From: Crocinitomicaceae bacterium
Lineage (GTDB): Bacteria; Bacteroidota; Bacteroidia; Flavobacteriales_D; Parvicellaceae
Reading direction: 5' to 3'
Length of the DNA: 63,304 nt
Assembly: GCA_002723085.1 (NCBI GenBank)
Contig: PBNK01000043.1
Span: 1-63,304, forward strand
Shown: piece after piece, positions 7,038 to 62,803 of the stretch
Numbering within the stretch: the first letter of the stretch is position 1
Layout of the letters: every line of letters starts with the position of its first letter
Notes under the pieces: generated by a model
Database searches by the model: none
What the model saw: only the letters and a program-made list of their open reading frames with translations
What the model was told of the DNA's origin: nothing
Made by a program: the position numbers and the translations under genes

Positions 7038-7047
7038 AAAATAATAT

Positions 7048-7746
7048 ATGATAAATAAAGAAGTTAAAAATGCAGTTGAAGCATGTAAGGATATAAAAAG
7101 TGGAATGACCATAATGTTAGGAGGGTTTGGCCTCTGTGGAATTCCTGAAAACTGCATTCAAACATTAGTAAATAAGGAGATCAATAATTTAACATGTATT
7201 TCTAATAATGCTGGTGTTGATGATTTCGGATTAGGTCTGCTTTTACAAAAGCGACAAATTAAAAAAATGGTCTCTTCATATGTAGGTGAAAATGATGAAT
7301 TTGAGCGACAAATGTTATCAGGAGAACTTGAGGTTGATTTAATTCCACAAGGCAGTTTGGCAGAAAGGTGCAGAGCTGGTGGGGCTGGGATTCCTGCTTT
7401 TTTCACTCCAGCAGGTTACGGAACTGAAGTAGGCCAAGGAAAAGAGGTTAGGAAATTTAATGGTAAACCTCATATTCTTGAAACAGCATTAACAGCAGAT
7501 TATGCTATTGTAAAAGCATGGAAAGGCGATAAGGCAGGAAATTTAATTTATAAAGGAACCGCAAGAAATTTTAATCCACCAATGGCTATGGCTGGAAAAA
7601 TTACTATTGCTGAAGTTGAAGAATTGGTTGAACCAGGAGAGTTAAACCCTAACGAAATTCATACTCCTGGAATTTTTGTCCAGCATATTTTTCAAGGTGA
7701 AAAATATGAGAAAAGAATAGAACAAAGAACGGTAATAAAAAATTAA
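7048..7746 (+). CDS. scoA: 3-oxoacid CoA-transferase subunit A
   Basis: Subunit A of a succinyl-CoA:3-ketoacid (acetoacetate) CoA-transferase, which activates acetoacetate with CoA from succinyl-CoA in ketone-body, butyrate or branched-chain catabolism. The 232-residue product has the family N terminus ([20 protein letters not shown]), the glycine-rich [17 protein letters not shown] motif at about residues 110-126, and a C-terminal PGIFVQHIF. It starts 10 bases after the PBP gene and its partner B gene follows after 2 bases, so the two are certainly co-translated. The symbol reflects the bacterial family; AtoD-type specificity cannot be excluded. Confidence 0.93.
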
Positions 7747-7748
7747 AC

Positions 7749-8411
7749 ATGGCATTAGATAAAAATGGAATTGCAAAAAGAATTGCACAAGAATTGAGAG
7801 ATAGATGGTATGTTAATTTAGGCATTGGAATACCAACTTTAGTAGCTAATCATATACCTAAAGGAATATCTGTAGAATTTCAATCTGAAAATGGAATTTT
7901 AGGAATGGGCCCATTTCCAATTGAAGGAACAGAAGATGCAGATCTTATTAACGCTGGAAAACAAACAATAACCTCTCTTCCTGGCGCAGTATTTTTTGAT
8001 TCTTCAACCAGTTTTAGCATGATAAGAGGACAACATGTTCAGCTCACAGTTTTAGGAGCTATGGAGGTAAGTGAAAACGGAGATATAGCTAATTGGAAAA
8101 TACCAGGAAAAATGGTTAAAGGAATGGGAGGAGCTATGGACCTTGTTGCTAGTGCTGATAACATTATCGTTGCCATGATGCATACTAACAAAAAAGGGGA
8201 AAGCAAACTGCTTTCCAATTGTTCGCTTCCACTAACTGGCGTTAATTGCGTAAAGAAAGTAGTTACTAATTTAGCCGTTATGGATATTCTTGATTCAGGC
8301 GGGTTTCGTTTAATTGAAAGGGCTCCGGGAGTTTCTGTTGAAGAAATTAAAAACGCAACGGCTGGGAAATTGATTGTTGAAGGTCATGTTCCTGAAATGT
8401 CAATTAGTTAA
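7749..8411 (+). CDS. scoB: 3-oxoacid CoA-transferase subunit B
   Basis: Catalytic partner of the preceding gene. The active-site glutamate that forms the CoA thioester is in SENGILGMGP at about residue 48. The protein opens with the usual IAKRIAQELRDRWYVNLGIGIP and keeps the conserved GAVFFDSSTSFSMIRGQH and GKMVKGMGGAMDLV blocks. The length of 220 residues is typical. The pair forms a heterotetramer in characterised enzymes. Its TAA at 8409-8411 is immediately followed by the TTG start of the next gene, suggesting transcription together. Confidence 0.94.
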   Translation: MALDKNGIAKRIAQELRDRWYVNLGIGIPTLVANHIPKGISVEFQSENGILGMGPFPIEGTEDADLINAGKQTITSLPGAVFFDSSTSFSMIRGQHVQLTVLGAMEVSENGDIANWKIPGKMVKGMGGAMDLVASADNIIVAMMHTNKKGESKLLSNCSLPLTGVNCVKKVVTNLAVMDILDSGGFRLIERAPGVSVEEIKNATAGKLIVEGHVPEMSIS

Positions 8412-9818
8412 TTGTTGCCATCAAAAAAAATATGGCTTAACAGTAAAAACGTTGTTTACTATCTAATTTTAATACAGTTATTTACATTATTTAATATTAA
8501 GCCTTGGAAGGGAGCCGAAACAAAAGACGCCCTAATTAATAATGATATAATATCTTATTATGCTTATTTACCTGCAACATTTATCCATAAAGACATAACT
8601 TTAAGTTTTACAGAGACAGATTCTGTTGACTATTGGGCCGAACGTAAATTTTGGCCAGAAACATCCCCAAATGGAGGAAAAGTTATAAAAACAACCATGG
8701 GAATGTCATTGTTATATTCTCCATTTTTCTTTTTAAGTCATTTATACGCTAGTTTTTCTAGCTCTTTTGATGCAAATGGTTTTTCAAAACCCTATGAAAT
8801 TGGACTTGCATTTTCTTGTTTATTATATTTATTTATTGGTTTTTTCTTCTTAAGAAAGGCATTGTCAAAGTGTTTTTCTGACAACATTACCTCTTTTGTT
8901 TTGATATGTATTTTTTTAGGAACTAATCTTTTTTATTATTCGACAACAGAGCCATGTATGTCACATGCATACACCTTTTCTTTAACAGGTTTTTTTATTT
9001 ATTATGTCCCAATATGGCTTAATAAATTCAATTTCAAATCTGCCTTGATTTTTGGTTTTATTTCGGGGCTTTTAGTTTTAATTAGGCCTACTAATGTTAT
9101 AATTATTTGCATGATTTTAACATATGGAATTCATTCATTAAACGGAGCTAAAAACAGACTTAATTGGCTTTATAAACATAAAAAACTTTTGTTGGTTTCC
9201 ATTGTAATAGGCTTTCTGGTTTTTACTCCTCAACTAGTTTATTGGAAGACTATTACAGGCGATTGGCTTTTTAACTCATATGTTGGTGAGCAATTTTATT
9301 TTAATAACCCTAAAATAATGGAGTTCTTGTTTAGCTATAGAAAAGGGTGGCTCCTTTATACTCCAATAATGGGATTATTTATATGGGGAATATATAGGTT
9401 GTTTCAAAGTAAAAACCCATGGGCTTTGTCTAGTTTATTTTCAGTCTTGGTTTGTGTTTTTGTCTTTTCTAGCTGGTGGTGCTGGTGGTATGGTGGAAGT
9501 TTTGGAATGAGGTGTATGATTGATTTTTATCCAATTTTTGCTTTTGGACTAGCTGCTTGTTTTAATGGTTTTAAAAATTATTTAATTTTTATAATACCGT
9601 TTGTATTTATTATACTGAATATTTATCAAACGCTTCAAAGAAGAAATTTGGTTATTCATTGGGATAGTATGACAAAAGAATCTTATTGGCATTTTTTCAC
9701 AACACTTAAAATGAAAAATGAAGAAAACTGGCAAAAACAAACGGAATTATTGTCAAAACCTGATTACGATAAAGCAAAAAAAGGTGAAAAAGAATATGAA
9801 TTTTCAGTTTTTAATTAA
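8412..9818 (+). CDS. Polytopic membrane protein, possible GT-C glycosyltransferase
   Basis: About ten hydrophobic helices across 468 residues, with a short soluble loop early on (DYWAERKFWPE, about residues 75-85) and a hydrophilic C terminus. This layout, with acidic residues after helix 1 (NNDIISYYAYLPA), resembles membrane sugar transferases that use polyprenyl-phosphate donors, but I see no decisive motif. The first in-frame ATG is at about residue 96, which would remove the first helix, so I accept the TTG at 8412, abutting the scoB stop; a second TTG follows at once. Its stop overlaps the stop of the convergent LytTR gene by four bases. Confidence 0.8.
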   Translation: MLPSKKIWLNSKNVVYYLILIQLFTLFNIKPWKGAETKDALINNDIISYYAYLPATFIHKDITLSFTETDSVDYWAERKFWPETSPNGGKVIKTTMGMSLLYSPFFFLSHLYASFSSSFDANGFSKPYEIGLAFSCLLYLFIGFFFLRKALSKCFSDNITSFVLICIFLGTNLFYYSTTEPCMSHAYTFSLTGFFIYYVPIWLNKFNFKSALIFGFISGLLVLIRPTNVIIICMILTYGIHSLNGAKNRLNWLYKHKKLLLVSIVIGFLVFTPQLVYWKTITGDWLFNSYVGEQFYFNNPKIMEFLFSYRKGWLLYTPIMGLFIWGIYRLFQSKNPWALSSLFSVLVCVFVFSSWWCWWYGGSFGMRCMIDFYPIFAFGLAACFNGFKNYLIFIIPFVFIILNIYQTLQRRNLVIHWDSMTKESYWHFFTTLKMKNEENWQKQTELLSKPDYDKAKKGEKEYEFSVFN

Positions 9819-10513
9819 AGGAGGTTAAGTTGCTTATTTAAGTTTTCTTTGTATGCTTTTCCAATATGAATTTGTTTATTTGGAAGAACAACATAATTGT
9901 CTTCAATAGAGTTTATTTGATCTAACCTAACAATAAATGATCTTTGAATTCTAATAAATTCATTTGATGGAAGTTTTGATGCGATATCTTTCATGGTGCT
10001 AAGAATAGTATATTTATCTTGACCAGTATGAATTTGCATATAATTTCCTAATGCCTCAACCCAAATAATGTCTTTTAATCGAACTTGAATTAGTTTGGAA
10101 TCAGTTTTGATAAAAATTGTTTCATCTTTTGATGAAACAATGGCATTATTTTCTGTTTGGTTTCTTAATTTAAGTTTTTCAATTGTTTTAAGAAACCTAG
10201 CGTTTGTAACAGGTTTTTTAATAAAGTCTGTAACGTCATACTCATAGGATTCTAAAGCAAATTCATCATGAGAAGTTATCATGACAACTTGTGGAGAGAT
10301 ACTTAAATTTCTTAACAAATCCATTCCTCCCATTTTAGGCATCTCAACATCTAAAAAAATAACATCAACAGACTCCTTTTTTAAATAACTAAACGCGTCA
10401 AGTGCATTTTCAAAAGTTGCCACACAAGTAATATTGTTAATTTCAGAAATCATGTCGCTTATTACAGTTTGACATAGTTTGTCATCATCAACAATTATAC
10501 ATTTAAGCATCAA
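9815..10513 (-). CDS. LytTR-family response regulator
   Basis: DNA-binding response regulator: receiver at residues 1-120 and a LytTR domain at about 135-232. The receiver has the acidic pair DDD near residue 9, the phosphoacceptor Asp in VIFLDVEMPKMGG at about residue 55, and the switch Thr/Ser and Lys in MITSHDEFA and FIKKPV. LytTR features are IWVEALGNYMQIHT and FIRIQRSFIVRLDQI. It overlaps the hybrid kinase gene by four bases (start inside the kinase's stop), so the two are translationally coupled and likely form one signalling pair. It converges on the membrane protein gene. Confidence 0.92.
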   Translation of the reverse strand: MMLKCIIVDDDKLCQTVISDMISEINNITCVATFENALDAFSYLKKESVDVIFLDVEMPKMGGMDLLRNLSISPQVVMITSHDEFALESYEYDVTDFIKKPVTNARFLKTIEKLKLRNQTENNAIVSSKDETIFIKTDSKLIQVRLKDIIWVEALGNYMQIHTGQDKYTILSTMKDIASKLPSNEFIRIQRSFIVRLDQINSIEDNYVVLPNKQIHIGKAYKENLNKQLNLL

Positions 10514-13149
10514 AACGTTTTTAATAAGTTTATTTCGTTTACAAAAAGGGTTTCTAAAATAATTAATTCTTCATTTAAATCTAATGATTTTTTTTGTTCC
10601 ATTTTTAAAATGTGATCGCTTAATTTGGACAACCCCATCGTTAATGAAGCACCTTTCATCTTATGTAACTGATTTTTAATCAAAGTTTTATCTTTACTTT
10701 TCAAAGCCTTTTTAAAAATACTGAGGTCTTTTTTTGTTGACTCTTCAAAAATGGTAATGTATTTTTCTTTTTTCTTAGGGTCGTTTTGAGTTAAATTATC
10801 AAATGCTATATTTAATTTTTTATCTGACTTAATTAAAAGCTCTTTTATCTTGTTTTTTATTTGTTTTGCTTGAAATGGCTTAGAAATACAATCATTCATG
10901 CCCGCAATCAAACATTTATCTAAAACATCATTTACAACATGAGCGGTCATTCCTAAAATCGGAGTTTTAACTAAGTTCAATTTATTTCTTATTTCTTTAG
11001 CAGTTTCTATTCCGTTTTTGACTGGCATTTCAAGATCCATTATTATAATTTCATATGCCTTATCATTAGCTAATAAATCTAAAGCCTCTTGCCCATTCTT
11101 TACCCAATCAACAAAAATATTTTTTTCTTTATTTTTCAATAATGAAGAATATAATTCTCCGTTTAATAAATCGTCTTCCACTAAAAGAATTTTAATTTTT
11201 TCAAGAGATAAATTTATATTTTCGTTTAATTTTTGGTCATTAGAGTCAAGGTTGTTAATTGGAATACTAAAAGAAAAAACACTTCCTTTCCCAACAGAAG
11301 ATTCGACAGAAATTTCTCCGCCCATTATATCAATAATGTTTTTACATATTGAAAGACCAAGACCCGTTCCTCCATATTGTCTGGTTGTTGATTTATTTTC
11401 TTGAGTGTATGGATTAAAAATGGTTTTTAATTTATCGTTATTAATTCCGGAACCATTGTCTTTGACTTTAAAATCTATAAAGTTCTCAGATTTGCTTTTT
11501 CTTAGTTTTGCGTTAAGCAAAACCTCACCTCCTTTTGTAAATTTTATGGCGTTATCTAATAAGTTAACTAAAACTTGATGAATTCGAACAGGGTCACCAT
11601 TTATTTCTTCAGGTGTGTAATCGTCAATTTCTTTAATTAATTTTACGTTGTTATGTATAGCTTTTGAATTTAAAGCTATAAAAAGATCGTCTATTAATCT
11701 TTTAATGGAAAAAGGTATTTTCTCTAATGTGATTTTTCTTTTTTCAAGCTTAGCTAAATCCAAAATATCATTAACTAAAAACAAAATGTTGTTAGCACTT
11801 GTTTTTATAGATGATAGGTGTTTTTGTTGAGGTTTGTTTAAAGGCGAATTTTCTAAAAGTTCAGCTGAGCCAACAACCGCAGATAAAGGAGTTCTTATTT
11901 CGTGAGAGGTATATGCCAAGAAATCATCTTTTTCTTTTTGAATCAATAATATTTTTTCATTAGATTCTTCTAGTTTTTTTACAACTAATGATTTTGTTCT
12001 AAAAGCATAAAATAAAAGACCAATAAACAAGAAAAGGATAATTATAACACCACCTAATAACAATAAAAACGTATTCTTAAAATTAAGGTCTTTTTTATCT
12101 AAAACTATTTGTTGTTCTTTAAGCTTAAGATCACTTTTTGTTTTCTCTTTTTCTAAGATTAACTCTTTTTCTTGATCAGCAAGTTCGATAGCAACCTTTA
12201 ATTCCTCTTCTTCTTGAAGAATTTTAATAGTATTAAGTTGTTTTAAATAAAGCGCAGACTTTTTATAATTACCTTGATTTTCATAGAAAGAAGAAAGTTT
12301 AAGACACCCCACTTTAATTCCCGCTAAGTAAGAGTTTTCTTTTGCATTTTTTAGACCTTCTTCATAAAAGTTTTTTGCGTCATTGAATAACATTAACCTT
12401 TCTTTTATTTTTCCAGATTCATATAGTGTTTCGACCAAGGCTTGAACATTGTTTGTTTGACGATATAATTGAATGCTTTTTTGATAAAAATTTATAGCCA
12501 AATCATACTTTTCTAAATTTTGATATCGATGACCGATTATAGTAAAAAAACCAGCTTTAACATTGGGTATATTTATTATGTTTGTGTAAAAAATTGCTTT
12601 ATCTAAAATTTCAAGATTATTTTCATTTGCTTTATTTTTTTTAATATCAAAAGAGGCAATAAAAGCAGAAGCAATTAAACAATTATCTACTATTTTTTCC
12701 CCTATTTTTTTACAATTATCAAATTGATGTTTTGCTGTTATAGCATCCCCAGAACTATAATAGACATTACCAATTAAAATATGGTTCAGAGCAATTTCTT
12801 TCCATTTTTTTATAGATACAAATTTTTCTTCAGCAATTTTAAATTGCTCTAAAGCTCGAGTTAGCTCTCCCATTTCTAAATATACTTTACCGATTATTTG
12901 ATGAGCAAAAGAAATTTTAGCAATGTCATTACTTTGTAAAGACTTAGTTAAGTTTTCTTGAGCATAATAAAGTGATTTTTCAATGTCTTTTTTTAGGTAC
13001 GCACTAGAAAGTTCAGCGTTTAGGGCTAAATTTTTATCTCCCAAAATAGAATTATAAATCAATGACAACTCCTGATTGCTAATGCCCCAGCTTAAATTAA
13101 TATTTAAACAGCCAAAAAGTATGAAGATATTTCGTAAATGTCTTTTCAT
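10510..13149 (-). CDS. TPR-containing hybrid sensor histidine kinase with receiver and HPt
   Basis: Multidomain phosphorelay kinase. In order: signal-like segment, TPR array (about residues 30-330) presumably in the periplasm, coiled coil, one membrane helix (about 355-377), HisKA with the phospho-His in YTSHEIRTPLSAV (about 416), HATPase with NLLDNAIKFT and GTGLGLSIC, receiver with Asp in IIMDLEMPVKNG (about 705), and a C-terminal HPt with His in LHKMKGASLTMG (about 828). I start at the ATG at 13149, giving a proper signal sequence; the frame opens six codons earlier. All four relay residues are present, so the path H-D-H then to the coupled LytTR regulator is plausible. The TPR sensor's ligand is unknown. 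Confidence 0.93.
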   Translation of the reverse strand: MKRHLRNIFILFGCLNINLSWGISNQELSLIYNSILGDKNLALNAELSSAYLKKDIEKSLYYAQENLTKSLQSNDIAKISFAHQIIGKVYLEMGELTRALEQFKIAEEKFVSIKKWKEIALNHILIGNVYYSSGDAITAKHQFDNCKKIGEKIVDNCLIASAFIASFDIKKNKANENNLEILDKAIFYTNIINIPNVKAGFFTIIGHRYQNLEKYDLAINFYQKSIQLYRQTNNVQALVETLYESGKIKERLMLFNDAKNFYEEGLKNAKENSYLAGIKVGCLKLSSFYENQGNYKKSALYLKQLNTIKILQEEEELKVAIELADQEKELILEKEKTKSDLKLKEQQIVLDKKDLNFKNTFLLLLGGVIIILFLFIGLLFYAFRTKSLVVKKLEESNEKILLIQKEKDDFLAYTSHEIRTPLSAVVGSAELLENSPLNKPQQKHLSSIKTSANNILFLVNDILDLAKLEKRKITLEKIPFSIKRLIDDLFIALNSKAIHNNVKLIKEIDDYTPEEINGDPVRIHQVLVNLLDNAIKFTKGGEVLLNAKLRKSKSENFIDFKVKDNGSGINNDKLKTIFNPYTQENKSTTRQYGGTGLGLSICKNIIDIMGGEISVESSVGKGSVFSFSIPINNLDSNDQKLNENINLSLEKIKILLVEDDLLNGELYSSLLKNKEKNIFVDWVKNGQEALDLLANDKAYEIIIMDLEMPVKNGIETAKEIRNKLNLVKTPILGMTAHVVNDVLDKCLIAGMNDCISKPFQAKQIKNKIKELLIKSDKKLNIAFDNLTQNDPKKKEKYITIFEESTKKDLSIFKKALKSKDKTLIKNQLHKMKGASLTMGLSKLSDHILKMEQKKSLDLNEELIILETLFVNEINLLKTF

Positions 13150-49146: not shown

Positions 49147-50136
49147 ATGTCAAAAAGAAAACTTCCTTATCATAATTACTATAATTTTTTGTGGATGTTA
49201 GAGCATTTCACTTCCCTTAATTATTTCACAAATAAAAGATTAAATCTTTCATCAAAAATTGCTTCTGAGATACAGCTTAAAGAATCTGAAAGGTTATCTG
49301 ACGTGCCTATTGAAATAGATATTTCAGCTTCTGATTTTCATAAAAAGTATTTTAAAAACCCTAAACCAGTTGTTTTTAAAGGCGCAGCAAAAAATTGGCC
49401 CGCTTATTCAAAGTGGTCTCCTGATTTTTTTAAAGAAAATTATGGCGAAACAAAAGTGATGTTAATTAATAACGCCTCGGTAAAAGACTTAGATAACTTG
49501 CAAATTAGTGATGTAAAGACAATGGGCTTTAAAGGTTTTATTGAAAAAATGCAGCAAGGAAGTCAAGAATACGTGAGGTTTTTACCCATTTTAGATGAGA
49601 ACCCAGAATTGTTAAAACACATCAGTAAAAATTGGCTTTCTGAATATTCTAATCATAAAAAAAAGGGCTTGAAGTATCAGTTTTTTATGGGGGGTAAAAA
49701 TACCTCTACATTGATTCATTCCGCTGCCGGATCAAACTTATTTGTACAGGTTTATGGTAAAAAAGAATGGTACATTTACGACCCATGCTATAGCTCTTTA
49801 GTTAAGCCTTTAGCAGATAAATCTGTTTTTTTTAGAGGCGATGTGAAAGCAAAAAACCCTGATGAAGTTTTTCAAAAAGCAAAAGGGTGGCGAGTAGTTT
49901 TAGAACCCGGAGACATTTTGTATAACCCGCCTTTTTTCTGGCATGAAGTACATAATTTAGGTACTACAATTGGTTTTGGATACAGGTGGTTTTCTTTTAA
50001 AGAAATCTACAACTCAAGTTTACAAAAATTTATTTTGACGCTTACTGCAACTAACCCATCAATCAGAAAAGCCAAAAAATTAAACCAAAACTTTGCTAAA
50101 GTTTATGATCAGGTGTTGTCAAAAAGCCTTAAATAA
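49147..50136 (+). CDS. Cupin-like/JmjC-type protein
   Basis: 329-residue protein with a Cupin_8 (JmjC-like) double-stranded beta helix at about residues 60-275, a fold of Fe(II)/2-oxoglutarate oxygenases acting on proteins or small molecules. The pattern is STLIHSAAGSNLFVQVYGKKE, in which the usual HxD reads HSA, then FFWHEVHNLG. Absence of the Asp may mean an altered metal site, or that the fold binds without oxygenation. No signal peptide. The stop overlaps that of the convergent sulfotransferase gene by 8 bases. Confidence 0.82.
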   Translation: MSKRKLPYHNYYNFLWMLEHFTSLNYFTNKRLNLSSKIASEIQLKESERLSDVPIEIDISASDFHKKYFKNPKPVVFKGAAKNWPAYSKWSPDFFKENYGETKVMLINNASVKDLDNLQISDVKTMGFKGFIEKMQQGSQEYVRFLPILDENPELLKHISKNWLSEYSNHKKKGLKYQFFMGGKNTSTLIHSAAGSNLFVQVYGKKEWYIYDPCYSSLVKPLADKSVFFRGDVKAKNPDEVFQKAKGWRVVLEPGDILYNPPFFWHEVHNLGTTIGFGYRWFSFKEIYNSSLQKFILTLTATNPSIRKAKKLNQNFAKVYDQVLSKSLK

Positions 50137-51262
50137 GCTCTTTGTAATATTCCTTCATAAAGGGAATTTCATCTTTATCAATATACTTTTTTAACTGTGG
50201 AGTTTTTTTAGGTTTAGACTTGTAATTTTGGTAGCTTTTTTTACTTATGTAAGTTAAAAAACATCCATTTAAGTTTAAAAAGTTAAAAACCGTTTTAAAT
50301 TCATCTTTGTCTTTCTTTATAAGCTTTTCAAAGTCTAAATAAAGGTGATGAATCTTTGGGTTTTCTTTGAATTTTTTATTGGAATGAAAATACCAATTTT
50401 TGATTAAGTCTATTGTTCTTGTTTTTAATTCTGATTTAATTTTAACGGATGAAAAAGAATTAAAAATTAGTTTATTGAGATTAATTACTGAGTTTATTAC
50501 AAGATTTGGACATCTATTTATGGTCAAAATTTTAGCATCATTAAATTGATCATGTATTGATTCTATCTTGCTCAACATAAAAGGATTTTTTGAAATAAAT
50601 GTCCTTTTTTGACTGTAATTAAAAACGTAATTGTGTCTTTGAACGAGCCTAAAATACCTTTTCATTATTCTTTTCTTTTGTTTTGGATTTACTTGGTTGT
50701 CAAAATCTAAAAAGTCATCAAAATTTTTACTTTCAGGATAAAAATATTGAAAGTACCCTGAAGACAAACTCCATAATAAAATTAGCTCATCTTCTTCAGG
50801 CTGTTCAAGACCTGTATTGTGTAATGTTGTCAAATTTTTAAAAACTATGTCCGAAAAAAAAATGATGGTTTTTTTTATTATTGAATTTATGTTTTTATCA
50901 AATTTATTGACTCCTAAAAAAATGAATTTTTGAGTTATTGAAGGCGCAAAAAGCAATTCCCATAATTTCATGGTTGTAAACTCAGTCTTAAAAGAAGATA
51001 ACATGTGAAGCAACATTGTGGTGCCTGTTCTTGGCATTGAAACTATAAATACAGGCTGCTTTATTTCGACTCTTTTAAATTTATAAAATAAGATATTGTC
51101 GATTAATAGAAAAAAATTATTGACTATAAAGAGGAAAGAAAAAAAAGGGACAAATAAAAATACAACCACTATTCTTTTAAAATATGGAAAACGCATATTT
51201 TTAGGGTTTATAGAAAATAACTCAGTTATTAATTTGAAACTTTTGAAGCTAGAATTGGACAT
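50129..51262 (-). CDS. Membrane-anchored sulfotransferase-family protein
   Basis: Sulfotransferase family, using PAPS as sulfate donor. The PAPS 5'-phosphosulfate loop is VSMPRTGTTMLLHM at about residues 73-86, and the 3'-phosphate region is near NRCPNLVINSVINL. Before it, a hydrophobic segment (about residues 27-55) would anchor it to the inner membrane. 377 residues. It is the last gene of the five-gene minus operon and its start shares bases with the stop of the ketoacyl synthase gene, so it is likely co-translated and acts on the pathway's product. Confidence 0.86.
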   Translation of the reverse strand: MSNSSFKSFKLITELFSINPKNMRFPYFKRIVVVFLFVPFFSFLFIVNNFFLLIDNILFYKFKRVEIKQPVFIVSMPRTGTTMLLHMLSSFKTEFTTMKLWELLFAPSITQKFIFLGVNKFDKNINSIIKKTIIFFSDIVFKNLTTLHNTGLEQPEEDELILLWSLSSGYFQYFYPESKNFDDFLDFDNQVNPKQKKRIMKRYFRLVQRHNYVFNYSQKRTFISKNPFMLSKIESIHDQFNDAKILTINRCPNLVINSVINLNKLIFNSFSSVKIKSELKTRTIDLIKNWYFHSNKKFKENPKIHHLYLDFEKLIKKDKDEFKTVFNFLNLNGCFLTYISKKSYQNYKSKPKKTPQLKKYIDKDEIPFMKEYYKELI

Positions 51263-52257
51263 TAGTACTTTATTAATAAACTACCAATAGAAAAACCAGC
51301 TGAAGTTCCAGTAAATAAACAAATGTCTCCTCTTTTTATTTGTTTATTTTCCACAGCATCCATAAATGTTAAAGGTAAAGATGCCGCAATGCAATTCCCG
51401 TATTTGTGTAATGTTTCCATAACGGAACTGTCATCTAATGAGTACATTTTTTTAAACATAAACAGACCCAATTTAGAAGCTTGATGCGGAATAATTTTGT
51501 CTACATTATGAATGTTATAATCCAAATCTTCAAAAAACCAATCTAAGAATTTTGGCAATTCTTTATTGGCCAATTTTAATAAGTTTTTCCCTTTCATTTT
51601 AAAACTATGTAGTTCTTTATCATAGGGGAAATCTTTAAATGGTCTTTTTGCCCCCCCTCCTTCAATTTTAGTTAATTCTACACTTGAGGAGTATGTTTTA
51701 TGTCCACTTTTTAACATGTAAGATTCACCATCATTATTATATTCAACAACAACAGCAGCAGCGCCATCTCCAAAAAGGCTAAATGTTTCCCAATTATCAT
51801 CGTTCAAGTTTTTTGAAGATATTTCAGAAGAAACAATTAATATTTTTCTTTTGTCATGGTTATTTATAACATTTGAAACATAATCAAAAGCAGATAGAAA
51901 GCTTAGGCAAGTTGTATTTATATCTATTGTGGAAAAATTATAGTTATTAGCATTTTTTATTTGATTTTTTATGACAGAAGATTGATTAGGAATAATAAAA
52001 TCAAAACTTGTACTTGCTGAAACTAATAAGTCTATTTCCTTAATGTCAATTTGAGCATCGTCAAGTGCTGCCTGAGCAGCTTTAGCTCCCATTTGACCTA
52101 CAGTTTCAAGCTCTATCCAATGCCGTTTTTTTACGCCAGAGTTTTTTTCAGACCAACCAAGCGGAATGTTATTATTTTTTTCTAAATCATTAGAAAGAAC
52201 TTCTTTAGGCAAGTATTTTCCTAATCCGATTATTTTAATTGGAGATTTTATATTCAT
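51262..52257 (-). CDS. 3-oxoacyl-ACP synthase III homologue (KASIII)
   Basis: Ketoacyl synthase III-fold enzyme, 331 residues. The catalytic triad is visible: Cys in NTTCLSFLSAFD (about 116), His in IIPHQASKLG (about 257) and Asn in YGNCIAASLP (about 287). It is typical of FabH-like condensing enzymes but located in an accessory operon rather than with fab genes. It could condense an acyl starter with malonyl- or acyl-ACP, or transfer acyl groups. It overlaps the PaaK-like gene by 23 bases. Confidence 0.91.
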   Translation of the reverse strand: MNIKSPIKIIGLGKYLPKEVLSNDLEKNNNIPLGWSEKNSGVKKRHWIELETVGQMGAKAAQAALDDAQIDIKEIDLLVSASTSFDFIIPNQSSVIKNQIKNANNYNFSTIDINTTCLSFLSAFDYVSNVINNHDKRKILIVSSEISSKNLNDDNWETFSLFGDGAAAVVVEYNNDGESYMLKSGHKTYSSSVELTKIEGGGAKRPFKDFPYDKELHSFKMKGKNLLKLANKELPKFLDWFFEDLDYNIHNVDKIIPHQASKLGLFMFKKMYSLDDSSVMETLHKYGNCIAASLPLTFMDAVENKQIKRGDICLFTGTSAGFSIGSLLIKY

Positions 52258-53518
52258 TTTTAATTCTTCTTAATTTGGTTCCTTTAACATGATCTAAATT
52301 TTTTGATCGGGTTATCTTTACACCTTCAATTTCTAGGTTTCTTAATAGCTCAATAATTGATTTCTTTGCGTTTTCATATTGTAAATCTTCCCCCTCAATA
52401 AACAAGTCAATTAAGTTCTTTTCTTTTTGAGTTACAGAGTAATTAAAGATGTTTTTATCAGAAAAGATAACAGCCCTTCTTACAAAATCAGGAAAAACTA
52501 AAACAATATCACCTTTGTTATTAATGAGCTTTAAAACATCATCATTTCTGCCTTCAACCATTTCAATTGCTGTTGATTTTAAGCTACAAAGACAATCAAA
52601 TTTTTCGTGAATGATATCGTCTAATTTATATCTAATGATTGGTTGAGTGGTTCGTTTTAAATCTGTTATTATTGGAAAAAACCTTTTCTTTTCCTTATCA
52701 AGGTATTGTTTTTCGATGATTAAAAAATCTTCATTAAAATGTAAGTTTCCATATTTACATGTGTGCGCCAAAAATCCCTCGTTGCATTGATAAACCTGAT
52801 GTATTTTTTGATTAAATATTTTCTCTAAATATCTTTTATCATCAACATATAGAGCTTCCGCCACCGAAATGATTTTATCGGGTTTAATTTTTAAGGTGTT
52901 GTTTTTAATGGCATCAGCAATTTCTAAAAGCATACTTGGTTGAGCCACTAATACATTTGGATTTAGCAATTGCAGTTTTTTTAGGTTTTGTTCACTTGAA
53001 ACCAACAGATCGAAAAAATTAAAGTCTATTAATTTTGAATTAACAGACTCATATAAATTACTGTTTGCTCTTAAAAAAAACGCTACTTTTCTTTTGCGAA
53101 AAGACCAGCCAATTACTCGATCAATGATTGTAGCTGTCCAATAAGCCCTTTCTTTTTCACTAGCTAAAAAAACAGCTTTATTTCCGCTGGTTCCCGTTGA
53201 AAGGCCTACAGTAATGTTGTTTACGCTTGGTTTAAAGTCTCTAGTTTTTTCAGCTTTTAAGGCTATTTCACTTGCTTTGTCAAATGAAATGTTTTTGGTG
53301 TTAATTAGATCAAAGTTTTTTAAAAACTCTTTTTTATCTAATATTGGAAAATTTTTAAATTGATGCTTAATTAGGGGGCTGTAAAAAGGAGATGAACTTA
53401 TTTTTTTTAAAAGCACCTTCCATCTCCAAGTTTGTAGCTTATTCAGGTTATTATTGAACAATAACTTAATAAGTTTAATTTCTATCAAATAATATAATAT
53501 CCTAATTTTAAAGATCAT
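52235..53518 (-). CDS. PaaK/CoF-synthetase-like adenylate-forming enzyme
   Basis: Member of the phenylacetate-CoA ligase/coenzyme F390 synthetase group. The nucleotide loop is VGLSTGTSGNKAVFLAS at about residues 104-120. Later core motifs are QCNEGFLAHTC and RTTQPIIRYKLDDIIHEK, where family members bind adenylate. At 427 residues it lacks the C-terminal bulk of classic acyl-CoA ligases. It probably activates a carboxylate by adenylation; the acceptor is unknown. It overlaps the hydrolase gene by 11 bases. Confidence 0.84.
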   Translation of the reverse strand: MIFKIRILYYLIEIKLIKLLFNNNLNKLQTWRWKVLLKKISSSPFYSPLIKHQFKNFPILDKKEFLKNFDLINTKNISFDKASEIALKAEKTRDFKPSVNNITVGLSTGTSGNKAVFLASEKERAYWTATIIDRVIGWSFRKRKVAFFLRANSNLYESVNSKLIDFNFFDLLVSSEQNLKKLQLLNPNVLVAQPSMLLEIADAIKNNTLKIKPDKIISVAEALYVDDKRYLEKIFNQKIHQVYQCNEGFLAHTCKYGNLHFNEDFLIIEKQYLDKEKKRFFPIITDLKRTTQPIIRYKLDDIIHEKFDCLCSLKSTAIEMVEGRNDDVLKLINNKGDIVLVFPDFVRRAVIFSDKNIFNYSVTQKEKNLIDLFIEGEDLQYENAKKSIIELLRNLEIEGVKITRSKNLDHVKGTKLRRIKNEYKISN

Positions 53519-54377
53519 TAAAAGAGATTTTATTTGAGACTAGACTATCTGTAGTTTTTGAGCAATGAGTTGGAATTATTTTTACTTCTTTATTGTTTTC
53601 ATGAAATTTTTGAATTTTATAAATGGTTGATTTATAATCTGACCAAGAATCAAAAAATAATCTTACTATTGGGTTTGGTAATATTCCTTCAGTTATTGCT
53701 TTTATATTCCAACAGGCATCAGCTATTAAAAAATACTTTTCTTTCTCGGTTTGAATAAGTATTCCTATTTGACCAGCTGCATGGCCGTCAAGATTGAAAA
53801 CCAAAATGGATTGATCTCCAAATAAGTCGTATTTATGCTTAAAAAAAGGATCATTTATCTTCACTGAGTTTTCTTCAATTATAGAAGCTTTTAAATGTAA
53901 ATCATCAGGAATTAAATCTTTTAAAACCCCTTTCCTAAAGCCGAAAGTTTTGGAAATTGTAGTGGCTTGTTTAAAAGCTTTTTGGGAAACATGAATTTTA
54001 GCATTTTTAAAGTCTTTAAGCCCACCAACATGATCTGCATGAAAGTGTGATACAATCACATGTTTAATTTCATCAGCATTTATGTTATTTGTTTCAAGCA
54101 GACATCTCACCTCATCTTCTTCTTTCAAAACAACCTTTGTAAGTTTAGCATAAAGCTTATTTGGATATTTTTTAGTTGCCTTAAAAAATCTATGTGTATA
54201 TCCTGTATCAAATAAAATTATACCTTTTGATGGGTGTTTTATAAGCCCCCAAAGAGCAAAAAACTTAATCTCAATATTTTTTCCATTTTTTAAGGTATGA
54301 TTTTCTTTTGCAAGACAATATCCTGAGTAACCTAGATGTAATTTAACTTTTTTCAATTCTATTTCTTTTTGTACCAA
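53508..54377 (-). CDS. Metallo-beta-lactamase-fold hydrolase
   Basis: MBL-fold enzyme of 289 residues similar to N-acyl homoserine lactonases. The full zinc motif HFHADHVGG is at about residues 108-116. Other ligands are DGHAAGQIG, LIADACWN and IIPTHCS. No signal peptide, so it is cytosolic. In this operon it may hydrolyse a thioester or lactone intermediate; an acyl-homoserine lactonase role is not supported by neighbours. It overlaps the SDR gene by 19 bases. Confidence 0.9.
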   Translation of the reverse strand: MVQKEIELKKVKLHLGYSGYCLAKENHTLKNGKNIEIKFFALWGLIKHPSKGIILFDTGYTHRFFKATKKYPNKLYAKLTKVVLKEEDEVRCLLETNNINADEIKHVIVSHFHADHVGGLKDFKNAKIHVSQKAFKQATTISKTFGFRKGVLKDLIPDDLHLKASIIEENSVKINDPFFKHKYDLFGDQSILVFNLDGHAAGQIGILIQTEKEKYFLIADACWNIKAITEGILPNPIVRLFFDSWSDYKSTIYKIQKFHENNKEVKIIPTHCSKTTDSLVSNKISFNDL

Positions 54378-55336
54378 ACTACAAATTCTTCAATGGCATC
54401 ATCAATGCTTTGTTTGGGTTTATAGTTTAAAATTTTTTCAGCTTTTTTAATATTAAGGGTAAAAGATTTTGATAGAATCCCAATGCTGTAAGTTGTTGTT
54501 GCTGGCTCTTTTAATTTTAAAATTTTTGATTTAAGCTCAGAAATGTAGGTTATGAAATAGGCGATTCCGTAAGGAACTTTTTTAGTAATTATTTTTCTGT
54601 CAAGCTTTTTTAAAACATAGTTTATTTTCTCCCAAAGCTTAACCGGATTTCCATTTGATAAATTGAATGTTTGGTTCAAAGCATCTTCATTATTTATCGA
54701 CAATATAATGGCATCTACTACATTACTTACAGGTGTAAAGTCCACTATATTTTCTCCATTGCCGACAATTTTTAGTTTTTTCTCATCATATGCTTTGATT
54801 AACCTTGGCATAATAACATGATCACCTCTTCCAATTATAGCTCTAGGTCTGAAAATAACATGCGGTACTTCTGATGACCTTAACAGTTCTTCTGCTTGGA
54901 ATTTAGTTTTAGCATAGTTATTTACAAATTTTTTTGGAAGAGGGTCTTCTTCTGAAATGTTTAGTTTGTCTTTGAATTCATAATAAACACCAGGTGAAGA
55001 AATGAAGATGATTTTTTTTATACCGTTATTTTTACTCGCATTTATAATGTTTATTTGGGTTTTAATATTTGCTTTTTTAAACTCAGAATAAGTTCCCCAA
55101 GGGGCTGACAAAGCAGCGCAATTTATGACAACATCAATTTTAGAAATAATTTTGTTTACAAAATCTGAATCAGAAATGTCACCTAAGATATAATTAACTT
55201 TATGGCTATTAATAAAATGAGTTTTTCTTATCTGTCTTCCTGTAGCAACTATTTCATTAATGTAGTTTAAATTGTGTAGTTTTTCGATTAATCTAAAACC
55301 CAAAAATCCGGTAGCCCCAGTAACTAAAATCTTCAT
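54359..55336 (-). CDS. NAD(P)-dependent epimerase/3-beta-HSD-like reductase
   Basis: Extended short-chain dehydrogenase, 325 residues. The NAD(P) loop is ILVTGATGFLGFRL at residues 3-16, and the catalytic Tyr-Lys is in NNYAKTKFQAEELL (about residue 140) with an upstream SSPG Ser region. The C-terminal half, with QSIDDAIEEFVVWYKKK, resembles OleD and 3-beta-hydroxysteroid dehydrogenases. Lead gene of the operon; the promoter must lie within 55337-55551, shared with the divergent desaturase. Confidence 0.89.
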   Translation of the reverse strand: MKILVTGATGFLGFRLIEKLHNLNYINEIVATGRQIRKTHFINSHKVNYILGDISDSDFVNKIISKIDVVINCAALSAPWGTYSEFKKANIKTQINIINASKNNGIKKIIFISSPGVYYEFKDKLNISEEDPLPKKFVNNYAKTKFQAEELLRSSEVPHVIFRPRAIIGRGDHVIMPRLIKAYDEKKLKIVGNGENIVDFTPVSNVVDAIILSINNEDALNQTFNLSNGNPVKLWEKINYVLKKLDRKIITKKVPYGIAYFITYISELKSKILKLKEPATTTYSIGILSKSFTLNIKKAEKILNYKPKQSIDDAIEEFVVWYKKK

Positions 55337-55551
55337 TATTCTAAATTACTAAAATTGTTTTTTGTTGATTATGGTTAACATATTTTTTGCAAAAAAAAAG
55401 GATTTGAAATAAAGAAAGAAAAAAACAATAACAGATATAAAAGCTTTATTAAAAAGGATATTTATAAAATGTGTTGTTCAATTTCTTTTTGAAATTATAT
55501 AAATGATTTTTAATACATTTAAGAAAATAGAAAAGCAGTTTTTATTTTAAG

Positions 55552-56652
55552 ATGACTAAAAAATTATTAAAAATTACCTTTCCACCCGAAGATGATGGTT
55601 TTTATCTTGATTTACGAAAAGAAGTAAATGCTTATTTTAAATCTAGGGGAGAAACACATTATGGAAATGCAAAGATGTATTTTAAAATGGCTCTCTTGTT
55701 TTCAATTTATATAACCGTTTATTTAGTTCCTTTTTTCATTGAAGTTTCACCAAGCCATGTGTATACATGTTACATTTTTCTTGGTATTTGGGGGTTGTTT
55801 TTAGGAGTAAATGTTGGCCATGATGCAGCTCATAATGCTCTTTTTAAAAACCCTAAATACAATAGCTTTTTCATGTACATTTTTGATTTGTTAGGGCTTA
55901 GTTCTTTTAATTGGAAAAATAGACATGTAAAAGGGCACCATGTGTTTTCAAATATTATGGAATATGATCCAGATATTCAACAATCTGCAGTGGTTAAGAT
56001 TTTTCCGCAAGATAGGCACAGATCGTTTCACCGAATTCAATGGCTTTATATGCCTATTATATATGCTATTTTCATTCCTCGATGGGTATTTTATCGAGAT
56101 TTTAAAGATGTTTTTCATAATGAAATAGGGGGATTCAAAAATCGGCCTTATCCTAGTTTTGAGGTCGTTAAAATGGTTCTCTTTAAACTTTCTTATTTAA
56201 GCTACATGATTCTGTTGCCAGCTTTTGTTTCTGGCCTATCAGTTTCGGTGTTCATTTGGGCAATGGTTTTGTTAATGGTTTGTTCTAGTTTAACAATTGC
56301 AGTGGTTTTACTAACTACTCATATGTTAGAAGACTCTCATTTTCCTGAACCTGACGAAAATGGCTTGATGCCCTACTCATGGTCAAAGCACCAAATGCTC
56401 ACCACCAGCGATTATGCAACAAATAACTTATTAATTTCACACCTTTTTGGAGGTTTTAATCATCATGTGATTCACCATCTTTTTCAACACGTTTGTCATA
56501 TACATTATCCTGCTATGACAAAAATTTTGATTCGTGTGGCGGCAAAACATAGTGTGCCATACCAGTCCCATAAATACATAGTGCCTGCAATTTTTTCACA
56601 TTTAAAATTACTTTACAACAATGGACTTAATATTCGCTATCCTCATGAATAG
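55552..56652 (+). CDS. Membrane fatty-acid desaturase
   Basis: Integral di-iron desaturase of 366 residues. All three histidine boxes are present: VGHDAAHNAL (about 89), RHVKGHHVFSN (about 123-132) and FNHHVIHHLFQH (about 302-312). Four to six hydrophobic helices surround them. Position divergent from the ketoacyl-synthase operon suggests it modifies the fatty-acyl substrate or product of that pathway, but a housekeeping membrane lipid role is equally possible. A good hairpin terminator overlaps its stop. Confidence 0.93.
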   Translation: MTKKLLKITFPPEDDGFYLDLRKEVNAYFKSRGETHYGNAKMYFKMALLFSIYITVYLVPFFIEVSPSHVYTCYIFLGIWGLFLGVNVGHDAAHNALFKNPKYNSFFMYIFDLLGLSSFNWKNRHVKGHHVFSNIMEYDPDIQQSAVVKIFPQDRHRSFHRIQWLYMPIIYAIFIPRWVFYRDFKDVFHNEIGGFKNRPYPSFEVVKMVLFKLSYLSYMILLPAFVSGLSVSVFIWAMVLLMVCSSLTIAVVLLTTHMLEDSHFPEPDENGLMPYSWSKHQMLTTSDYATNNLLISHLFGGFNHHVIHHLFQHVCHIHYPAMTKILIRVAAKHSVPYQSHKYIVPAIFSHLKLLYNNGLNIRYPHE

Positions 56653-59657: not shown

Positions 59658-60704
59658 GTGCCAAATTTTAACCTTTCCTACCCAAGAGTTTGTAAAAGAA
59701 ATGATGGGAAATATTACATTGATTTTCGTTTAAATAACAATCGTTACAGATTTTTTAGCGGTAGAGCGATAAACTCATCATTATCTCCAAATTCATTCCC
59801 TCCTAAACTTCGTAATTCTGCTACAAAAAAACTTGCAAGAGAGTTCTTTGACTTTATAATTTCTAATAATTATTCTCTTGAAAGAAATTTATCATCATTA
59901 GAAAAGTTTGACCTTTTAATTCATCAAAAACTCTCTGAACCTCTTTCTATTAATTATCGAAAAACATTAGCTAATATTTCAAAAACTTTAAGAATTGAAT
60001 TGATTAAAAATGGTAAAATAAGTAATGTTTTTATTTCATCATTATTATTAAAATATGATAATAATACAAGCTACAATACCATAAGAAAGCACGTAAATGT
60101 TATTATAAACCATCTTAAAAACAATAGTTTCCCTATTGAAATTTGCAAGCTAAAGCCCCGTAAACAAGAGGAGGTGTTGCATAAGGCAATCTTTGATATT
60201 AAATCATTACTTAACAAAGTAAAAGCGTTTGATGAAAATTTACATATGTGTTGTTTATTGACTTATGGTTGTTTATTAAGGCCTCATCAAGAAATTAGAT
60301 TACTTAGCTGGTCTGACTTTAGCAATGATTTATTATTCATTTACCTAAATGGTAGTAAGGTGAAATCCAAGAGAAATCGCATAGTTCCTGTTCCAAAATA
60401 TATTAGAGAAAAATTAAAAAAAGGAGAATTAAATAACAACATATTTTCTAACTCGAGTATTCCATACAATAAAGATTATTTTAAAACATTGTGGAGTCGT
60501 TTTAAAAAAGAAAATCGTGATATAGGTGCAAATACAACCATATATTCTTTTCGTCATTCTGGGGCTATTGAATTGTTTAAAAGAACAGGTAGCATTACAA
60601 AGCTTCAAAAAGCAATGGGGCATTCTTCAATAAAAGTCAGCTTAACCTATTTAAGGGGATTGGAGATTCCAGAATTAATGGAAGAAGATATGCCAATTAT
60701 TTAA
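59658..60704 (+). CDS. Tyrosine recombinase/integrase
   Basis: Site-specific recombinase of 348 residues from a GTG start. The N-terminal half is a SAM-like core-binding region. The catalytic domain shows the first Arg in LLRPHQEIRLL (about 208), a conserved Lys in LNGSKVKSKRNR, HxxR in YSFRHSGAIEL (about 298-301), the second His in KAMGHSSIKVS (about 319) and the nucleophile Tyr in LTYLRGLE (about 330). All residues needed for activity appear present. The location next to a tRNA fragment indicates it directed insertion at tRNA-Ala. The length and lack of an extra insertion suggest a genomic-island integrase, not an integron type. Confidence 0.93.
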   Translation: MPNFNLSYPRVCKRNDGKYYIDFRLNNNRYRFFSGRAINSSLSPNSFPPKLRNSATKKLAREFFDFIISNNYSLERNLSSLEKFDLLIHQKLSEPLSINYRKTLANISKTLRIELIKNGKISNVFISSLLLKYDNNTSYNTIRKHVNVIINHLKNNSFPIEICKLKPRKQEEVLHKAIFDIKSLLNKVKAFDENLHMCCLLTYGCLLRPHQEIRLLSWSDFSNDLLFIYLNGSKVKSKRNRIVPVPKYIREKLKKGELNNNIFSNSSIPYNKDYFKTLWSRFKKENRDIGANTTIYSFRHSGAIELFKRTGSITKLQKAMGHSSIKVSLTYLRGLEIPELMEEDMPII

Positions 60705-61537: not shown

Positions 61538-62803
61538 ATGAGAAGTGTAACATTATTAGTATTCGTTTTAGGGTTTAGTTACCAGAATTTAACCTTAGCA
61601 AACACAGAACCAAATACCAATAAATCAGATAAGTATGTAATTATTCCAGATGAAAGCTTTGAGAGAGCTCTTAAGAAATTAGGTTATGATAAAAATATAA
61701 ATGGAAAAGTTAAAAGAAAAAATGTTTGTGGTATTAAAAAACTTAATCTAAGACATTCTTGGATTACAGATTTATCAGGGATAGAAGCATTTACTGCCAT
61801 AACTGATTTAACTTTAAATGGAGGTTGTATTAAAAGCTTAGACTTAAGTAAAAATATTGCTTTAAAAAGCTTGAATTTGATTAGCCCATTCCGCAGCGGA
61901 TGCATTACAAGTCTTAATTTGAGTAAAAACACTGCTTTAACTGAATTATATTGTAATGGCAACAAACTAACAAGTTTAGATTTAAGTAAAAACACTGCTT
62001 TAACTAAACTGAATTGTAGTTTCAATCAACTCACAAGTTTAGATGTAAGTCAGAATACTAATTTAACTTCATTGGTTTGTTATAATAATAATCTTACAAG
62101 TTTAGATTTAAGTAAAAACACGGCTTTAACTATATTGAGTTGTAGTGATAATCAACTCACAAGTTTAGATGTTAGTAATAACACGGCTTTAACTATATTG
62201 AGTTGTAGTGATAATCAACTCACAAGTTTAGATATTAGTAATAATACAGCTTTAGAAAGATTGGATTGTAATGGTAATCAATTAACAAGTTTAGATGTAA
62301 GTAATAATACTGCTTTAACTGAATTGTATTGTAATAACAATCAACTCACAAGTTTAGATGTAAGTAATACTGCCTTGACTAAGTTGAGTTGTAATAATAA
62401 TCAACTCACAAGTTTAGATGTAAGTAATATTCCTGAATTTGTAGATTGCTCAGAAAACATCCTTGATTGTGAGTTGCTTTTGAATAAAAATTCAGCTTTA
62501 ACTTTGGAAGAACAGCCACAGTTCCCAGGTGGTATGGAAAAACTTTTAGAATTTTTAATTACTAATATTAAATATCCTGAATTAGCTGTTAAACAGGGAA
62601 TTCAAGGAAAAGTATTTGTTGCTTTTGTAGTAAATAAAAATGGAAAGATTAGAGATGCAAAAATAGTCAGAGGTGTCCATGAGTCATTAGATAAAGAAGC
62701 ATTAAGAGTTATTAGTATAATGCCTAATTGGAACCCTGGCAAACAAAACGGAGAAGCTATTAATTGTAGGTTTACTTTACCTATTAGTTTCAAATTCAAT
62801 TGA
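61538..62803 (+). CDS. Secreted leucine-rich-repeat protein with TonB C-terminal domain
   Basis: 421 residues. Signal peptide (residues 1-21, NLTLA). About ten 20-21-residue leucine-rich repeats at about residues 65-310, with consensus NTALTELYCNNNQLTSLDVS. The C-terminal region (about 325-421) is a TonB C-terminal domain: PQFPGGMEKLLEFL, YPELAVKQGIQGKVFVAFVV, DKEALRVISIMPNWNPGKQ. It matches the TonB domain at 58354 strongly. No inner-membrane helix or Pro-rich spacer is visible, so its action is unclear. It may be a cell-surface or periplasmic recognition protein carried by the element. Confidence 0.86.
   Translation: MRSVTLLVFVLGFSYQNLTLANTEPNTNKSDKYVIIPDESFERALKKLGYDKNINGKVKRKNVCGIKKLNLRHSWITDLSGIEAFTAITDLTLNGGCIKSLDLSKNIALKSLNLISPFRSGCITSLNLSKNTALTELYCNGNKLTSLDLSKNTALTKLNCSFNQLTSLDVSQNTNLTSLVCYNNNLTSLDLSKNTALTILSCSDNQLTSLDVSNNTALTILSCSDNQLTSLDISNNTALERLDCNGNQLTSLDVSNNTALTELYCNNNQLTSLDVSNTALTKLSCNNNQLTSLDVSNIPEFVDCSENILDCELLLNKNSALTLEEQPQFPGGMEKLLEFLITNIKYPELAVKQGIQGKVFVAFVVNKNGKIRDAKIVRGVHESLDKEALRVISIMPNWNPGKQNGEAINCRFTLPISFKFN
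62118..62233 (+). repeat. Tandem repeat in the LRR gene, period 63
   Basis: 53 identical bases at 62118-62170 and 62181-62233, coding for two identical LRR units (ALTILSCSDNQLTSLD). Exact identity suggests recent duplication or gene conversion within the repeat array. Confidence 0.8.

Follow-up and report, generated by a model that had tools for sequence, protein, structure and literature searches.

A conserved SDR, MBL-fold, TIGR02304 and KASIII gene quartet, with predicted sulfotransferase, desaturase and HxA oxygenase tailoring genes in marine Flavobacteriales

Four adjacent genes of a Crocinitomicaceae bacterium, encoding an SDR, a metallo-beta-lactamase-fold hydrolase (MBL), an adenylate-forming enzyme of family TIGR02304 and a KASIII-like ketosynthase, form, by sequence comparison, a unit that is conserved across phyla with its catalytic residues intact, and this quartet is a co-inherited and apparently undescribed acyl-processing module. 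In marine Flavobacteriales it is decorated with genes for a predicted sulfotransferase, a predicted desaturase and a putative JmjC-type Fe/2OG oxygenase with an HxA motif. We consider it fairly likely (a probability of about 0.6) that the whole operon directs the biosynthesis of a sulfated acyl lipid that is desaturated and oxidised, and possibly halogenated. The sequence-only reading of this DNA knew of no characterised pathway with its set of genes, and our search of the open-access literature likewise found no paper on the set and no characterised pathway containing it. The quartet is a widespread acyl-processing module that has been annotated gene by gene, with no described product found; once its genes are assigned to a single pathway, the module can be tested in relatives that grow in culture (Crocinitomix catalasitica, Paenibacillus and Ureibacillus).

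The window, which is the whole 63,304 bp stretch analysed, is contig C43 of a 2.43 Mb genome (G000) that is 95% complete, and its closest kin in our locus set are Crocinitomicaceae/Flavobacteriales bins. All six ORFs of the sequence-only reading were found again at the same positions. Five lie on the minus strand in the order SDR (gene 1 of the operon, 54359–55336), MBL (53508–54377, with a TTG start codon), TIGR02304 enzyme (52235–53518), KASIII (51262–52257) and PAPS-dependent sulfotransferase (50129–51262), and by their ORF coordinates they overlap by 19, 11, 23 and 1 nt, respectively. The 23 nt overlap between the TIGR02304 and KASIII genes is seen again in roughly half of the Bacteroidota-type loci where it could be measured (32 loci), so the arrangement is not due to chance and the earlier view that the five genes are packed as one operon is supported. 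The desaturase gene (55552–56652, plus strand) is divergent, and the 215 bp between it and the SDR gene (55337–55551) is, from its position only, a likely promoter region; a sigma-70 promoter and terminator scan gave fewer sites than were found in shuffles. The previously drawn cluster boundary of 50129–56652 is too narrow, as it omits the convergent plus-strand Cupin_8 gene at 49147–50136, which is part of the cluster and whose 8 nt overlap with the sulfotransferase gene recurs in loci L017 and L021. Base composition, examined with horizontal transfer in mind, gives the cluster genes a GC content of 25–33% (31% for the window), and only the sulfotransferase gene is low (25%). To the right of the cluster, at 59658–60701 and 61538–62800, are genes for a recombinase of the phage-integrase type and for a leucine-rich-repeat protein that carries a TonB C-terminal domain.

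With the TIGR02304 protein as query, a scan of ~85,000 species genomes gave 79 loci from at least five phyla, including Bacteroidota, Bacillota and Campylobacterota, and 51 of these have 4.5 kb or more of flank on either side. Within these 51, the TIGR02304 gene is accompanied by KASIII in 49, by the SDR in all 51 and by the MBL in 49, where the SDR and MBL counts include tblastn matches that the ORF caller overlooked. Gene order is SDR-MBL-TIGR02304-KASIII in the Bacteroidota-type loci, KASIII-(ATP-grasp)-SDR-MBL-TIGR02304-(ATP-grasp) in most Bacillota, and mostly KASIII-SDR-MBL-TIGR02304-(ATP-grasp) in Campylobacterota. The pairwise distances of the four families are concordant (Mantel rho 0.68–0.79 vs null maxima of at most 0.17), and in the KASIII tree Bacillota and Campylobacterota are each confined to one side of a branch. 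The quartet is patchy within the window's own order, being present in 20 of 299 genomes. L006 was excluded from the alignments for ambiguous bases. Apparent losses of MBL or SDR in L051, L071, L086 and L089 proved to be ORF-calling artefacts, as tblastn recovers these genes.

The genes that accompany the quartet vary by lineage, so the unit is the core of four genes, to which the sulfotransferase, the desaturase and the HxA Cupin_8 oxygenase are lineage-specific tailoring additions. Of the 32 Bacillota loci, 28 have ATP-grasp genes, as do all seven Campylobacterota loci and a single one of the 35 Bacteroidota-type loci. In the last group, some of whose loci are truncated, and only there, FA_hydroxylase (21 loci), sulfotransferase (15), Cupin_8 (8) and desaturase (7) genes occur; the last three are therefore not obligatory partners of the core. 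Co-occurrence across genomes, the check that had been proposed, supports the set, with a core of four genes and not five. Since this core is coupled to ATP-grasps in Bacillota and Campylobacterota, it probably yields one shared kind of acyl intermediate, finished differently in each lineage, and the ATP-grasp-linked quartet probably leads to a different product. In L053, L064, L075, L079 and L085 and in most Bacillota loci the ATP-grasps are of the uncharacterised PRK06849 group, often with two per locus.

Pfam and NCBIfam models confirmed the families of the encoded proteins. The SDR is an extended enzyme of the Epimerase/3Beta_HSD type, and its motifs TGxxGxxG and Y141xxxK145 are kept in 69 homologues; its nearest named model is OleD, but at 172–175 bits against a cut-off of 580 it is not an OleD equivalog. 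The MBL (Lactamase_B) is nearest to the AttM lactonase model, at 87 bits against a cut-off of 390, which it does not reach. It has the HxHxDH + H + D + H dinuclear metal site of the AHL lactonases AiiA and AttM (H111/H113/D115/H116/H199/D220/H271), complete in 67/67 homologues, and the structures nearest to its AF2 model (pLDDT 93) are AHL lactonases and pyridoxolactonase. The active-site Tyr that follows the metal-bridging Asp in AHL lactonases aligns with Trp in 66 of the 67 homologues, which makes lactonase activity uncertain. The PaaK-like protein had no match in a Pfam search and is a clear member of TIGR02304, a family related to F390 synthetase (419.7 bits, cut-off 251.9). Its S107xGTSG loop, E247, D301, R324 and K415 are kept in 75–77 of 77 homologues, as is a putative Cys/His metal site (C254/H260/C309/C311).

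The nearest named model to the operon KASIII is PRK07204 (305 bits, cut-off 402), and among solved relatives it scores 212 bits with MxnB, 198 with CorB, 133 with FabH and ~59 with OleA. Its Cys-His-Asn triad is intact and conserved (C117/H258/N288), and it is distinct from the housekeeping fabH product of the same genome, which is encoded beside a plsX-like gene and lies far from it in the KASIII tree. A catalytic Glu, E117 in OleA (where it comes from the partner subunit) and E105 in PpyS, defines head-to-head condensation chemistry, and MxnB and CorB have Val at this position (V94 in MxnB; PMC4578411). The corresponding residue, aligned with MxnB V94, is Ile or Leu in 71/71 homologues, and from the alignment this missing Glu argues against an OleA-type condensation. 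It bears directly on the possibility of a non-orthologous Ole pathway, with head-to-head condensation by KASIII, reduction by the SDR, beta-lactone formation by the PaaK-like enzyme in place of OleC, and decarboxylation or hydrolysis by the MBL in place of OleB, to give an olefin or a beta-hydroxy acid. The quartet does parallel OleABCD step by step in enzyme type, with a thiolase-fold condensing enzyme, an SDR whose best named model is OleD, an adenylate-forming enzyme, a hydrolase (here with an AHL-lactonase fold) and no carrier protein. We nevertheless regard this pathway as quite improbable: besides the Glu and the distance from OleA, the SDR falls far under the OleD cut-off, the ligase is TIGR02304 rather than OleC family, the hydrolase is MBL-fold where OleB is an alpha/beta hydrolase, and an olefin route has no role for a sulfotransferase or oxygenases. 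A sulfotransferase, a desaturase and the HxA oxygenase are additions relative to OleABCD. Of the partial Ole resemblance noted earlier, the OleA part is not supported.

MxnB and CorB, which likewise have a non-acidic residue in place of the OleA Glu, are the closest solved relatives of this KASIII and belong to the myxopyronin and corallopyronin polyketide clusters, where they make alpha-pyrones from ACP-bound beta-ketoacyl chains. An analogous route here, with a pyrone built by KASIII from two beta-ketoacyl chains and then either opened by the MBL or decorated, is very unlikely, since the window has no such polyketide context, the genome's single carrier-protein match leaves no PKS evident to supply the chains, and reduction of the beta-keto group by the SDR would block pyrone formation. 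That single match is a PP-binding domain in a 79-aa ORF on contig C35, in agreement with the earlier statement that no carrier is encoded near the cluster, and it suggests that the acyl groups probably ride on one housekeeping ACP or on CoA.

The same observation, and the position of the KASIII in the FabH/MxnB neighbourhood, would also suit a PqsABCDE-like order of steps, in which KASIII uses malonyl-ACP to lengthen an acyl-CoA supplied by the ligase, a beta-keto acid is freed by the MBL as thioesterase, and the hydroxy acid that the SDR forms from it is sulfated. An acyl ligase, KASIII-type enzymes and an MBL-fold enzyme (a thioesterase in Pqs) also serve alkylquinolone synthesis, where these three enzyme types act one after another. 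However, the nearest folds to the MBL are lactonases and PqsE is absent from its top matches; moreover the window adds an SDR and a sulfotransferase, and its tailoring is aliphatic, whereas Pqs uses anthranilate. We therefore hold this order to be possible if doubtful; it differs from our preferred explanation mainly in the order of the steps, which the sequence does not determine.

In the preferred explanation, a sulfated acyl lipid pathway whose substrate, product and step order we infer, the TIGR02304 enzyme would adenylate a carboxylic acid (a fatty acid or beta-hydroxy acid), and KASIII would form a C-C bond from acyl groups carried by CoA or by the one housekeeping ACP, so that no dedicated carrier need be encoded. 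Reduction of the beta-keto group by the SDR would give an alcohol, and the MBL would hydrolyse an intermediate that is either a thioester or a lactone. The chain would be modified by the desaturase and the HxA oxygenase (hydroxylation or halogenation), and the sulfotransferase would sulfate the alcohol from PAPS. Such acyl-derived chemistry, also proposed in the sequence-only reading, fits the families found. The sulfotransferase is a Sulfotransfer_3 protein (67 bits, cut-off 27) in which both PAPS motifs, the 5'-PSB (P77RTGTT82) and the 3'-PB (R250...S258), are conserved in 16 sequences, and the genome encodes cysC-cysD-cysN for PAPS. In a Balneola relative (L020) the sulfotransferase gene is followed directly by cysD and a cysN/C fusion gene, and in L029 an MMPL exporter gene adjoins the sulfotransferase gene. 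The membrane desaturase (FA_desaturase, 96 bits) has the conserved histidine boxes HDxxH, HxxxHH and HxxHH, and its gene is the second of a same-strand operon in L028, L031, L038, L039 and L094. Neighbouring genes for MMPL, desaturase and FA_hydroxylase proteins indicate that the product is a lipid. The entire set lies on one strand in L031 and L038, in the order cupin8-desaturase-SDR-MBL-TIGR02304-KASIII-sulfotransferase, and in L136 and L139 the sulfotransferase gene is followed by another copy of the cupin gene.

The Cupin_8 protein is JMJD5-like both by sequence and by its AF2 model (pLDDT 84, Foldseek E ~1e-19 to JMJD5), and an ungapped alignment of JMJD5 LHQDPQQN with its IHSAAGSN places A193 at the iron-binding Asp. 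It resembles JMJD5 and FIH, hydroxylases of the Cupin_8 type, in fold and in 2OG-binding residues, and differs from them in having HxA for HxD; its motif is H191-S-A193 ... H266, with T188, N197, K206 and H266 retained, in what we take to be the residue register of FIH. HxA was present in 22/22 strong homologues read in a survey of the order, while nine weak paralogues lie outside the cluster and have HYD in all six whose motif is readable. The HxA cupin occurs in 11 of the 20 genomes with the quartet and in five of the 279 without it (Fisher p = 1.8e-11, which is overstated as the genomes are related), and in two of these five the quartet is cut by a contig end (G192) or broken (G009). The family is narrow, since a phylum-wide sample of 395 genomes gave a strong match only in the window's own genome.

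An HxA/G motif is a signature of Fe/2OG halogenases. As in those of the SyrB2 and WelO5 type, the carboxylate ligand of the facial triad is replaced by Ala here while the two His and the apparent 2OG-binding Thr and Lys are retained; unlike them, this protein has the JmjC/Cupin_8 fold, and halogenation by it is a candidate activity only. Human AspH, whose site likewise has only two His, is a hydroxylase and does not halogenate (PMC13168262), so the motif, read from sequence, is suggestive of halogenase activity and is not proof of it. Searches of the open-access literature found nothing on FIH D201G facial-triad work and only a general review on chlorosulfolipid halogenases. This oxygenase, with its strict conservation and its linkage to sulfotransferase and desaturase genes, is a candidate member of an aliphatic halogenase family with a new fold or, alternatively, a further hydroxylase like AspH that does without the carboxylate ligand. 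The further proposal that it represents a new JmjC-fold Fe/2OG halogenase family acting on the quartet-built, sulfated acyl chain, in a bacterial chlorosulfolipid-like pathway of marine Flavobacteriales, is unlikely.

Several loci have other arrangements. L137 (G009:C14, 3095–7518) is a decayed cluster in which cupin8-desaturase-SDR are left, MBL and TIGR02304 are gone and KASIII, ahead of the sulfotransferase, is reduced to its C-terminal 80 residues. In L147 (G199:C4:160000-175000, 6886–11126), which has no quartet, a tandem pair of HxA Cupin_8 genes is convergent with two sulfotransferase genes downstream of KASIII and SDR genes, and this locus separately ties HxA cupins to sulfation. Some bins of the same order also have HxA Cupin_8 genes that stand alone, away from any quartet (L142, L143, L144, L145 and L146), and the one in L144 lies beside a carbonic anhydrase gene.
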